A stretch of 64,000 bases of DNA from Peribacillus simplex (GTDB taxonomy: Bacteria; Bacillota; Bacilli; Bacillales; DSM-1321): assembly GCF_001578185.1 (NCBI RefSeq), contig NZ_CP011008.1, positions 3,810,001-3,874,000 of the forward strand. The letters run 5' to 3'. Made by a program: the position numbers and the translations under genes. Under the pieces are notes generated by a model. That model was not told where the DNA came from and ran no database searches. It saw only the letters and a list, made by a program, of their open reading frames with translations. Positions 6,916-9,760 of this stretch are shown piece by piece. Every line of letters starts with the position of its first letter. Within the stretch, counting starts at the first letter, position 1.

Positions 6916-6997
6916 TGTTAGTGTCCCAGGAGAGATTCGAACTCCCGACCGACGCCTTAGAAGGGCGTTGCTCTATCCAGCTGAGCTACTGAGACGT
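6916..6997 (-). repeat. Left 82-bp direct repeat (att-like) of the tRNA-Arg island
   Basis: The 82 bases from TGTTAGTGTCCC to GAGACGT are identical to 9679-9760. They cover the whole tRNA gene. Flanking bases differ on both sides. Confidence 0.88.
6922..6995 (-). tRNA. tRNA-Arg (UCU), left copy
   Basis: The minus strand folds as a cloverleaf. The acceptor GTCTCAG pairs with CTGGGAC, followed by discriminator A. The anticodon stem ACGCC/GGCGT encloses loop CTTCTAA, so the anticodon is TCT. The T arm has GTTCGAATC. CCA is not encoded. The sequence is identical to the gene at 9685-9758. No strong promoter lies directly upstream; the neighbouring sequence is island DNA. Confidence 0.95.
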
Positions 6998-7216
6998 ATC
7001 GCTGTTTTTCTTCAGTTCAGTATAACGGTCACTTTTCGAACTTAGACCGTAATCGTGATTTTTATTATAACTTAGTATAATACTCATTGCAATACTAGTA
7101 ATATTATATTTTGAGGTGGGTTAGAATTACGACTAACAAATACTCAAACCATTTGGCAAGCATTCCTACTTTAGAAACAACTTTCTCTATTGATACAATA
7201 AAAAAACATCCACTAT

Positions 7217-7375
7217 TTAGATGGATGCCTTCTTACAATTATTTAGCTTGTTCTGTAGCAATTCTTTTAAAATATCAATAGCATTTTCTTCACTTGGGTC
7301 ATTTGTTCCAAGTTCTCCTTGGAAAGCTTTAGACAAAATAGATTGTTCAAGAAGTTCTAACTTTGATGTTATCTT
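7217..7375 (-). pseudogene. C-terminal fragment of a type I restriction specificity subunit (HsdS)
   Basis: The minus strand encodes KITSKLELLEQSILSKAFQG, then ELGTNDPSEENAIDILKELL, before a stop at 7217. This is the characteristic C-terminal coiled-coil and tail of HsdS proteins (LEQSILSKAFxGELGTNDPxEExAI). The target-recognition domains and any hsdM or hsdR genes are missing. It is a relic of a restriction-modification locus carried by the island. Confidence 0.78.
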
Positions 7376-7482
7376 AACAAATCCACTGCACGGGACAAAA
7401 AAGGTGAAGAACGTGTCTCTCGTGATGACTTAACATTTGAGCCATCAAATAAACAGTTAAATTTCACCAACTACCATTTATT

Positions 7483-8556
7483 TCAAGAATGACGAACTTT
7501 GGCTTTTAAGAACTGTTGATACTTCACAAAAGTGTTTGTATACTGACTGACACATTCATCAAAGGACTGATGCTCAAAGAAGTTTAACTTAGCAACTAAC
7601 TTATAAAGATCTGTGTTTCTTGAGCCTCTAATTAATTCCACTTCGCATCCTAATAACACTCTTAATTCTTCAAGGTGATTAGAAGCAATGGATCGAATTA
7701 AGTCTGTTCCCTCTTTTTTATAAGACTCAATAAATACGGAGGCTGTTCGGTCTTTCTTATAAACAAAAACAAACTTCCACGGAATGTTCAAAAACTGATG
7801 TCCGACAAAGTAATCTCTTTTGCCACCATAGCGAGCCGTATATTCCGTTTTCGTATTTACGAAGTTTGAAATTTCCTGCAAAAAGGTTGATACATCTTGA
7901 TCTATGCTAATTTTTCGTTCTTTAGCTGCAGTCTTCTTATTAATATAATAGTCCTCAAGCTTATATGGTGGAATAATTTGATTTGTGTCTAAGATGATCT
8001 GATCCTCCAACTTATAAGGTTTAATCGTTACACATTTTATATCAATGCTATTCTCATACAACCATGTGCAAACGGAAAGAATTCTCTTATCAATATCTTT
8101 TCCAACTATGATAATCCGTTGGCTATTGTTAAGGATGCTGTTTAATTCCTCTTCGATCTCCACTTCTAAAAATTCCATCAGTTCATCCTTAGCATTAGTT
8201 ACTGCAGAATTCACCTTTACATATTCTTCGTAAGTCTCCAGAATATCATTTGGACTTAGTCTTGCACAATATGAAGCATATTTCAGAGCTTGGAAGTCGA
8301 CATTGCTACCCGTTGCGTCTCTTTTCACTTCAATGATCACTAAATTACCTTCTTTATCGATCGCTAGAAGGTCTAGCCGTTCATTCACTTCAAATTTATC
8401 GTATTCATGGGCAATTATCAGTAGGTCTTCACCTAATACATCTGGGCTTTTACGTATCCACTCTTCGATGTGTTGCCGCTCTTTCAAATCATTTTCGGTG
8501 AAAGTAGTTTCTTGGATTTCTTCTAATCTATTATTGACTGCATCTAATCTATACAC
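7483..8556 (-). CDS. PD-(D/E)XK nuclease-like protein, NucS/DUF91 type N-domain
   Basis: A 357-residue protein starting at GTG 8556 with AGGAGG upstream. Residues about 25-110 hold a NucS-like endonuclease core: KERQHIEEWIRKSPDVLGEDLL, then NERLDLLAIDKEGNLVIIEVKRD with the Asp and ExK motif, then DFQALKYASYCARL. The C-terminal half (KTEYTARYGGKRDYFVGHQF..., WKFVFVYKKDRTASVFIE) resembles DUF4268-like regions found beside such nucleases. No helicase or methylase domain and no partner gene are present. It is the only complete gene in the island and lies beside an HsdS relic, so a defence role is plausible but inferred. Confidence 0.78.
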   Translation of the reverse strand: MYRLDAVNNRLEEIQETTFTENDLKERQHIEEWIRKSPDVLGEDLLIIAHEYDKFEVNERLDLLAIDKEGNLVIIEVKRDATGSNVDFQALKYASYCARLSPNDILETYEEYVKVNSAVTNAKDELMEFLEVEIEEELNSILNNSQRIIIVGKDIDKRILSVCTWLYENSIDIKCVTIKPYKLEDQIILDTNQIIPPYKLEDYYINKKTAAKERKISIDQDVSTFLQEISNFVNTKTEYTARYGGKRDYFVGHQFLNIPWKFVFVYKKDRTASVFIESYKKEGTDLIRSIASNHLEELRVLLGCEVELIRGSRNTDLYKLVAKLNFFEHQSFDECVSQYTNTFVKYQQFLKAKVRHS

Positions 8557-8589
8557 TCCTGTTTTCCTCCTATTGCTTAGTTATCATTG

Positions 8590-8825
8590 ATTGTATTATG
8601 TATCAATTAGATCACCAAATTCTCGATGTAGTAGAATTGCCTGAGACATACCCAATGATTCCATGACCTGCCCCGCTGTATCTCTTTTACTTTACTGCTT
8701 GTAATACTTCTCCCAGTCCTTCGCATGCTAAGGCTGGACGACTCTTTCTTCTTTGCTACTGCGCTGCCCTCGGCTTGTCTTTTCTTGATTTCATCTCTTT
8801 CCTTCACGACAAATGAAGTAAGCAA
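8590..8825 (-). pseudogene. C-terminal fragment of a serine recombinase, with stops and frameshift
   Basis: The minus strand first reads LTSFVVKERDEIKKRQAEG, then AVAKKK, the helix E and arm region of a resolvase. After a frameshift it continues HAKDWEKYYKQ, stop, SKRDTAGQVMESLGMSQA, which is the C-terminal helix-turn-helix. At least two stops and one shift interrupt it. It overlaps the end of another recombinase fragment upstream, so the two are joined remnants. Confidence 0.7.
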
Positions 8826-9076
8826 TGATTACCGACAGTCAGTATTTCCTTAACCTTGGCTCTTTGCTTCTTGTTCATATTCTCTACGAATAAGTGTTCA
8901 TTTCTTATTCCCGTCATCTCACGTTGCTTTGCAAGTACTTTACCTTCCTGTGTGCGCTCTATTATGAGATTCCTTTCCATCTTTGCAACAGCAAGCACAG
9001 TCTGCAGGAAGAACCGAGCAAGTTGGTCTAGCTTTGTCGCCACCATAGCCACATTAGGTGTAACTTTTGAAAAAAT
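8804..9076 (-). pseudogene. Serine recombinase/resolvase fragment with internal deletion
   Basis: The frame reads VATKLDQLARF directly joined to FLQTVLAVAKMERNLIIERT, then QEGKVLAKQREMTGIRNE. In intact resolvases about 40 residues separate the KLDRLAR motif from the LAxxAExER helix. They are missing here, as is the N-terminal part with the catalytic Ser. The fragment ends in a tail without the usual helix-turn-helix. It is a pseudogene of the resolvase/Pin family. Confidence 0.72.
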
Positions 9077-9152
9077 CCTTAATTGTTAAATGTTGTAAAA
9101 TACGACCATGTGTTAACAATGAACTTTCATTAAAATTAAATATGCAGAAAAA

Positions 9153-9182
9153 AACAGTCATTAGTTAATGACTGTTTTTTCC
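9153..9182 (-). terminator. Hairpin terminator behind the integrase fragment
   Basis: AACAGTCATTA/TAATGACTGTT stem with A and T tracts on either side; it can work in both directions. Confidence 0.7.
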
Positions 9183-9552
9183 TTTCTTCAACCCTGCATC
9201 AAATAATACTAATGCAATAGCATATTGTAATTCTGGTTTGATTGCTTACATTCATGCTATCTAACCATTTATAAATGGTATTGGCTGTAATATCGGCAAC
9301 ATATTGAACATTTGTTACGCTTTGAAAATGCTCTACATGAAGTACATAATCACTTATAGTACGGCTTCTATTACCACTCACCTTCATTTGCCTTGTAATA
9401 ACGTCTAGAGCGTTTGAAATCAAGATGGAGTCACTTAGAATAGCAGGTTGTTCAGTCCTAGCTTTTGAAGCGGCAGAATTGGAAACGGGTAATTCCTCTA
9501 ATAACCCTCTTACGTCTACTTTAACATCTAATAATCCTTTTCTTTTGGTCAT
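9175..9552 (-). pseudogene. Tyrosine integrase, N-terminal part only
   Basis: The 117-codon frame from 9552 has a SAM-like core-binding domain: ISNALDVITRQMKVSGNRSR, then TISDYVLHVEHFQ, then ADITANTIYKWLDSMNVSNQTR. This matches the phage integrase N-domain that contacts the att core. It then leaves the family. A shifted frame reads LQYAIALVLFDAGLKKG and soon stops. The catalytic domain with the Arg-His-Arg-Tyr set is missing. It lies next to the right tRNA copy, the usual place for the island's own integrase. Confidence 0.75.
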
Positions 9553-9562
9553 ACGAAAAAAC

Positions 9563-9660
9563 CTCCTATATCGTTAGTAATGTAAGTCGATATACGGTGT
9601 AATTTCTTACATAACCGTTATACTGACCGTTTCACTAAACGATATAGAAGGTTGTCGTAG
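9563..9660. repeat. Inverted and partial repeats upstream of the integrase fragment
   Basis: CTATATCGTTAGT (about 9567-9579) and its near-complement ACTAAACGATATAG (about 9634-9647) flank a further CGATATACGG. They sit between the integrase start and the att repeat. Integrase arm sites or an autoregulatory operator would be expected there. Confidence 0.45.
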
Positions 9661-9678
9661 CGGGCTTTATAACCGCTT

Positions 9679-9760
9679 TGTTAGTGTCCCAGGAGAGATT
9701 CGAACTCCCGACCGACGCCTTAGAAGGGCGTTGCTCTATCCAGCTGAGCTACTGAGACGT
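9679..9760 (-). repeat. Right 82-bp direct repeat (att-like) of the tRNA-Arg island
   Basis: Identical to 6916-6997, covering the complete right tRNA-Arg gene. Confidence 0.88.
9685..9758 (-). tRNA. tRNA-Arg (UCU), right copy
   Basis: Same cloverleaf and TCT anticodon as the left copy. A strong sigma-A promoter (9823-9851) lies about 65 bases upstream, so this is the copy most surely expressed. Transcription would then run into island DNA. Confidence 0.95.

Follow-up and report, generated by a model that had tools for sequence, protein, structure and literature searches.

An island bounded by two complete tRNA genes

The subject of this analysis is a 2.76-kb island at positions 6916-9760 of a 64,000-nucleotide stretch of DNA from Peribacillus simplex (contig NZ_CP011008.1, positions 3,810,001 to 3,874,000), referred to below as the window. 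Comparison with related genomes identified the island as an insertion into a tRNA-Arg(UCU) gene rather than the interval between two ancestral tRNA genes. Very probably it is a decayed member of a family of elements, in one branch of which the attachment site (attP) contains a whole tRNA gene and which is further characterized by an outward-facing promoter, an attenuator hairpin in front of the integrase gene (int), a split tRNA transcription unit and defence-like cargo. All coordinates given here are positions in the whole window; G numbers denote genomes and L numbers denote loci.

The direct repeats bordering the island (6916-6997 and 9679-9760, 2763 bp apart) are identical at 82 of 82 bases, and a complete tRNA-Arg(UCU), encoded by the minus strand, lies within each of them (6921-6995 and 9684-9758, respectively). 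Both tRNAs were recognized by ARAGORN and by Rfam, with a score of 66.5 bits for the tRNA model in each case, which confirms the 82-bp perfect repeat, spanning the whole tRNA at both ends, that had been reported in a preliminary description of this DNA. At E<=0.001, the rest of the 5.52-Mb genome contained a single further match to the repeat, only 77% identical and corresponding to tRNA-Arg(CCU); thus, the repeat is not a product of chance.

The right tRNA (the near copy) lies behind the host tRNA promoter, TTGACT-17-TATAAT (9823-9851, minus strand), which is kept upstream of the single tRNA in relatives. The left tRNA (the far copy) is now followed by the rho-independent terminator of the host tRNA-Arg unit (6878-6914, minus strand, 17-bp stem), also found beside the single tRNA in empty sites. 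The preliminary description had correctly reported a near-consensus promoter at the right copy and a terminator at the left one. It overlooked two further signals: a promoter-like site of the left copy, situated inside the island (TTGCAA-17-TATAAT, 7092-7064, minus strand, 68 nt upstream of the left tRNA), and a strong hairpin with a U-run that follows the right tRNA, ahead of the integrase remnant. These two signals give either junction the appearance of a complete unit for tRNA transcription.

Insertion into the tRNA-Arg(UCU) gene

The tRNA was present in all 36 genus genomes searched. Two copies at the locus were detected in 11 of them (the window's own genome, G002, G003, G004, G013, G014, G016, G017, G018, G019 and G034), while G005 carries two copies on separate contigs. 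The flanks of the island (6496-6997 and 9761-9900) were joined in silico and compared with 36 loci from 35 genomes. An unbroken match across the joined flanks, with a single tRNA, was obtained for 11 of the 36 loci, including that of the sister genome G006 (96% identical in the yfcE block). The remaining 25 loci contained either two copies, or a single copy with diverged or rearranged flanks. Relatives with one tRNA-Arg gene and both flanks joined, which the preliminary description had proposed to look for, therefore exist. On a 36-row host tree of the yfcE block (with G002, G003 and G005 entered as double) the single and double states interchange at least 8 times.

The integrase family and the forms of its far tRNA copy

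The integrase remnant of the island (9199-9552, minus strand) matches residues 1-118 of the 348-residue, full-length integrase of G016 at 70% identity and lacks the catalytic domain; a search of the island for other parts of the protein found none. Judging from its gene content, the insert is a decayed integrative element, stranded in this genome by the loss of that domain. The genome contains no full-length integrase of this family, of which the remnant is the only representative. A helper integrase encoded in the same genome was considered and rejected, the eight other matches being only 25-29% identical. G016 harbours an intact relative of 10.6 kb, which combines int with a candidate defence gene (PDC-S46), genes for a serine recombinase and an HNH protein, and a full tRNA at both ends.

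The integrase was found in 25 of 397 genomes of the order at E<=1e-60, as well as in four named genomes; family searches added three more (G428, G441, G461). In the resulting set of 30 elements, Priestia flexa and Domibacillus tundrae were counted as the same as G249 and G195, respectively. The loci of Lederbergia panacisoli, G352 and Mesobacillus zeae are designated L074, L114 and L138.

The second island end is a full tRNA, whereas the definition of a tRNA island expects a fragment. A full-length far tRNA was identified in 8 of the 30 elements (G016, G163, G249, G067, G101, G212, G250, G352), some of these copies being altered at positions 1-2 or at a few internal positions. Four others (Lederbergia, Mesobacillus, G304, G262) carry a near-full far tRNA, approximately 5-17 nt short at its 5' end. 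An ordinary 31-56-bp repeat of the tRNA 3' part was observed in 12 elements (G037, G108, G195, G263, G270, G305, G308, G341, G391, G409, G441 and, within a tRNA-Val gene, G428). The repeat of G201 measures 39 bp, without a called tRNA, and those of G260 and G399 are 102-103 bp of non-tRNA sequence; in two elements (G296, G461) the far repeat was not found. G005 was placed in none of these classes: the tRNA beside its broken integrase differs in leader type from the clade-A end on its other contig, which suggests that the two ends may stem from different elements.

Within the genus, remnants without a full integrase also retain two full tRNAs, with clade-A ends (the window, G004, G019, G034) or clade-B-like ends (G013, whose tRNA 3' ends contain unread bases, G014, G017, G018). 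Clade A of the integrase tree comprises G016, G163, G249, G304, Lederbergia and Mesobacillus, with G195, and clade B comprises G067, G101, G212, G250, G305 and G352. Both clades, the partial form G037 and the two non-tRNA forms share one supported 16-row group, and the near-full form of G262 lies outside it. On this tree (midpoint root, some long branches) a minimum of 4 changes between long and short forms is required for 12 long and 11 short rows. The long forms are not one clade (approximately unbiased test, AU, p = 8e-53, with the 11 long rows known before G262 was recognized as near-full).

Some members of the family deserve separate mention. Identical family integrases lie between the 102-103-bp perfect repeats of G399 and G260 (L118, L119), in which no tRNA was called; the family can thus use a non-tRNA target. 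In Mesobacillus zeae (L138, 12767-13717, int on the plus strand) another int-type leader comes after the far tRNA copy, and a tRNA-end repeat of 36 bp lies 0.9 kb beyond it, which gives the impression of a second, worn element in tandem.

Origin of the far tRNA copy

The preliminary description had suggested that the element carried a whole tRNA, and our comparisons support this. Compensatory changes in the anticodon stem distinguish the near copy from the far one in L074 and L114, the two agreeing 3' of this stem, and in partial members of the family only the 3' part of the tRNA is common to the two ends. These observations point to strand exchange 3' of the anticodon stem, and the compensatory differences indicate that the 5' half of the far copy is element-borne. 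Moreover, in relatives with a full far tRNA, element-specific DNA lies directly 5' of it. The left-end leader of the window is 94-96% identical to those of G004, G005, G019 and G034, although G005 is only about 69% identical in the host yfcE block. Extended from these relatives to the window, this would mean that the left copy received its 5' part from the element, and its 3' end and terminator from the host.

An alternative view is that an ordinary island with a partial 3' attachment site had its far copy filled out later by gene conversion, with the near copy as donor, the full tRNA being a functionless by-product. The presence of many partial members within the same integrase family is in line with this. 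So is the finding that the intact far copies (window, G004, G016, G019, G034, G163, G249) match the allele of their own host in the 5' part, which most probably reflects either recent capture or homogenization. We nevertheless consider this explanation rather improbable. The compensatory stem differences make the far 5' half the element's own, nearly identical promoter-leader DNA abuts nucleotide 1 of the tRNA in the window and the four genomes listed above, the same leader motifs occur at similar spacing in L049, L100 and L101, and the 11 long forms fail to group as a single clade on the integrase tree. Recombination between tRNA copies, which the preliminary description had offered as a second way of building the island, is not needed for its origin, although it could explain the host-allele match of the intact far copies.

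Phages often carry tRNA-Arg(UCU). The tRNA of the element could accordingly be a phage-like translation helper for cargo rich in AGA and AGG codons, its role in attachment being secondary, and the second tRNA(UCU) is indeed complete and has a promoter-like site of its own. This seems very unlikely, since in those members that have a tRNA at each end the tRNA, or its 3' piece, is located at the recombination junction, and since 12 of the 30 elements keep only a 3' piece that is unable to be a tRNA.

An ancestral pair of tRNA-Arg genes separated by unrelated DNA, named in the preliminary description as the contrary case, was not seen: tandem tRNA-Arg(UCU) pairs do occur in G002 (L034, 952 bp apart) and G003 (L035, 241 bp apart), but these are of another kind, with what looks by eye like a promoter-like region for each copy, and are placed well outside the window's clade on the host tree, whereas G006 and ten further loci have a single tRNA with the window flanks joined and the insert bears integrase-family ends, so that this explanation is ruled out for practical purposes. 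In G002, an int leader resembling that of clade B comes after the right tRNA copy.

The promoter-like site and the leader hairpin

The best outward site has the form TTGnnn-17-TATAAT, with a spacing of 18 in L038, at each of the 10 far ends of clade A that were scored. Five of these ends come from the genus and are nearly identical; the other five are L049, L074, L100, L101 and L102. The sites are located 66-71 nt before the tRNA, or 82 nt in L102, in which the tRNA start is worn. Their spacers have diverged, yet the position is fixed and the -10 element unchanged, which argues for a promoter function. The left tRNA may be driven by its own, element-borne promoter-like site, and both copies would then be expressed.

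At the other end of the island, the int leader forms a hairpin followed by a U-run (9560-9653, minus strand), with an AGGAGG ribosome-binding site (9562-9567) in its 3' arm. For the leader of the window, to which the fold statistic refers, the predicted energy is -49.1 kcal/mol (z -8.1) and none of 200 shuffled sequences folded as well. Covariation was analyzed in 19 of 27 leaders; L103, L052 and six clade-B leaders, in which the hairpin is lacking or deleted, were left out, and L102 was counted as is, shifted by one base. The pairing was kept in 151 of 168 cells (19 leaders, 14 distinct arm pairs), both-sided changes were present in 8 of 12 pairs, and none of 2000 whole-arm swaps paired as well. 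The hairpin is likely to act as an attenuator of int and as the terminator of the right tRNA.

Tandem CGGTCA-type repeats are located within the leader (9612-9632, minus strand). An alignment of 18 leaders showed the first CGGTCA, and CGGT within the second repeat, to be invariant, with at least 90% conservation at the other positions. These repeats of the hairpin loop are probably the right-end arm-type sites of the integrase. Putative left-end counterparts form a CGGTC...GACCG inverted repeat (7017-7050, minus strand; ACCGTTATACTGA), and the motif also occurs at the far end of several relatives. Within 6700-10000, Rfam at the gathering score matched only the two tRNAs and no family for the int leader. 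In G005 (L037), an int leader of another type, 260 bases downstream of the tRNA, has a GGAGG site that, judged by eye, is likewise part of a short hairpin accompanied by a U-run; burial of the int ribosome-binding site may thus be common in the integrase family.

Proposed organization of the element

We propose that the island is a decayed member of a Bacillales tyrosine-integrase family that inserts mostly into tRNA-Arg(UCU). The attP of this branch would contain the whole tRNA gene instead of its 3' part; one end would bear an outward-facing promoter, and the other an attenuator hairpin before int. Insertion would split the promoter-tRNA-terminator unit of the host and the element would supply the missing halves: the right copy would be read from the host promoter and end at the element hairpin, and the left copy would be read from the element promoter and end at the host terminator. 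After excision, transcription from the element promoter would run through the tRNA of the circle and on into int, whose expression the hairpin would damp.

A stronger version is more doubtful. The attachment site might have been turned into a self-sufficient split tRNA operon, whose far copy can sustain the cell if the near copy is lost; we regard this as possible rather than probable. The corresponding view that each insertion creates two promoter-tRNA-terminator units and swaps the promoter of int is held equally tentatively. If true, a split tRNA operon would link the defence cargo to an essential tRNA.

Several observations weigh against the proposed organization. The ordinary 3'-part repeat is the form found in the 12 elements listed above, and the genus remnant of G010 keeps only a 30-nt tRNA piece. 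Wear at the 5' end affects several of the long far copies, namely those of L074, L102, L104 and Mesobacillus and, at positions 1-2, those of L109, L113, L114 and L116, which indicates that the far copy is not always under selection. The individual clade-A promoter-like sites are only moderately improbable (equalled in a fraction of 0-0.075 of shuffles), and in L101 and L102 the opposite strand offers a site with a higher score. No convincing promoter was detected in any of nine clade-B far ends (shuffle fraction 0.115-0.41), and among eight partial-tRNA ends scored a clear one was present only in L110. Finally, L103 and clade B do not have the leader hairpin; in clade B an ordinary terminator occupies the leader position (by eye).

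Relation to known systems

The attachment sites of phage HP1 and plasmid SLP1 are said to span a whole tRNA and, for long tRNA attachment segments, the tycheposons of Prochlorococcus may be added; all are possible precedents from unrelated hosts. Tycheposons are mentioned in PMC10872708 and PMC11389934, as far as the relevant passages of these papers go.

In the sections of the Islander paper (PMC4383910) that describe its design, a tRNA island is defined as a tRNA plus a displaced fragment; the tDNA filter rejects matches within a full-length tRNA gene and the length filter rejects islands of less than 2 kb. The elements described here resemble such islands in having a tyrosine integrase gene by a tRNA gene and repeated tRNA sequence at both ends. 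They differ in that the tRNAs at both ends are full, and in that the copies of genus remnants may be as little as 0.4-0.9 kb apart. With full-length matches and short islands discarded, as those sections state, elements of this kind would be missed by Islander, including some with Lamassu, Hachiman-like or PDC cargo. The passage of a review dealing with rebuilt tRNAs states that they nearly always keep the original promoter, unlike the far copy in the window, which has an element-borne promoter-like site. The Islander design and this passage are what bear out the preliminary description in calling a full-length duplication of the tRNA unusual. In the corresponding passages of PMC9897764, tRNA duplications are partial only.

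Two systems are partly comparable, according to the portions of the respective papers concerned. In the tRNA-dependent lysogeny of actinobacteriophages (PMC10865867) a mobile element likewise carries a complete tRNA of the target isotype. There, attP and attB share approximately 10 bp, the junction tRNA is not rebuilt and the phage tRNA complements it, whereas in the present case the tRNA is itself the attachment site and is full at both junctions. In KplE1-type prophages (PMC2951348) int likewise has a tRNA as its neighbour, and its control takes place at the attachment region: the int promoter overlaps attL, and the integrase and the recombination directionality factor (RDF) bind over it. 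In the elements analyzed here, unlike these prophages, it is a hairpin that buries the int ribosome-binding site, and the outward promoter-like site is at the other end.

The element family was not found in the open-licence literature, although a report in subscription journals is possible. The remnants with two tRNAs 0.4-0.9 kb apart suggest a route by which integration could add tRNA genes to a genome.

Cargo and other contents

Besides the integrase remnant, the island encodes an intact PDC-S11 protein of 357 aa (7483-8556, minus strand), a candidate anti-phage protein that includes a NucS-like region and is taken to be the cargo; its gene is the only large one that is intact. In the PADLOC search (E=4e-181) its residues 1-355 aligned with positions 1-356 of the 359-position profile; the Pfam NucS_C match (E=6e-5) fell just short of its cut-off. 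An 82-aa serine recombinase remnant (8804-9052, minus strand) matched Pfam Resolvase (E=7e-5) and the PHROG for DNA invertase (E=3e-9), and the resolvase of the G016 element had no match anywhere in the island. A terminator-like hairpin with a T-run (9149-9180, plus strand) is nearly palindromic and may work in both directions.

Ten cargo proteins of six elements, chosen by eye, were also checked. PADLOC recognized LmuA-LmuC-LmuB (Lamassu) in L100 and HamA/HamB-like (Hachiman-like) proteins in L101, and L114 has a type II methyltransferase; four of the ten, including the alpha/beta hydrolase of the G004 element, gave no PADLOC match. On this basis, the cargo of the elements looks like anti-phage defence.

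A viral or plasmid origin was considered but found no support. The integrase matched 48 phage and 1348 plasmid records, all at less than 60% identity, and a peptide-pattern scan of viral contigs, which reaches close relatives only, detected no close relative of it. No capsid, packaging or satellite hallmark genes were recognized by PHROGs in the five window open reading frames (ORFs) scanned. Similarly, no relaxase or conjugation genes were present among the scanned ORFs of the window or the seven scanned proteins of G016, of which four had no Pfam match above the cut-off.

Several further sequences were noticed in the course of the analysis. Solitary tRNA-Arg-like copies, distant from the yfcE locus, are located at position 7742 of L070 (G004) and 7810 of L069 (G019). 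The former, which was not called a tRNA, has a piece of element-type leader upstream (88% over 51 bases) and an ORF resembling, by eye, a different type of tyrosine integrase. The latter was called tRNA-Arg(UCU), with approximately 13 leader bases (by eye) and tRNA-Val(GAC) nearby. In L042 (G009, approximately 7319-7470) and in L058 of G025, ahead of the tRNA at 6695, approximately 100-150 nt separate the tRNA-Arg promoter from a single intact tRNA. This stretch had no Rfam match at the gathering score; it is alike in two subclades and contains a tRNA-like 5' fragment together with GCACGATCGA...CGTACTGATCGAGC motifs. Finally, a small ORF of the GIY-YIG nuclease type lies near the left flank of the island (4709-5065), and a matching stretch was found in 19 of the 38 genus loci compared.

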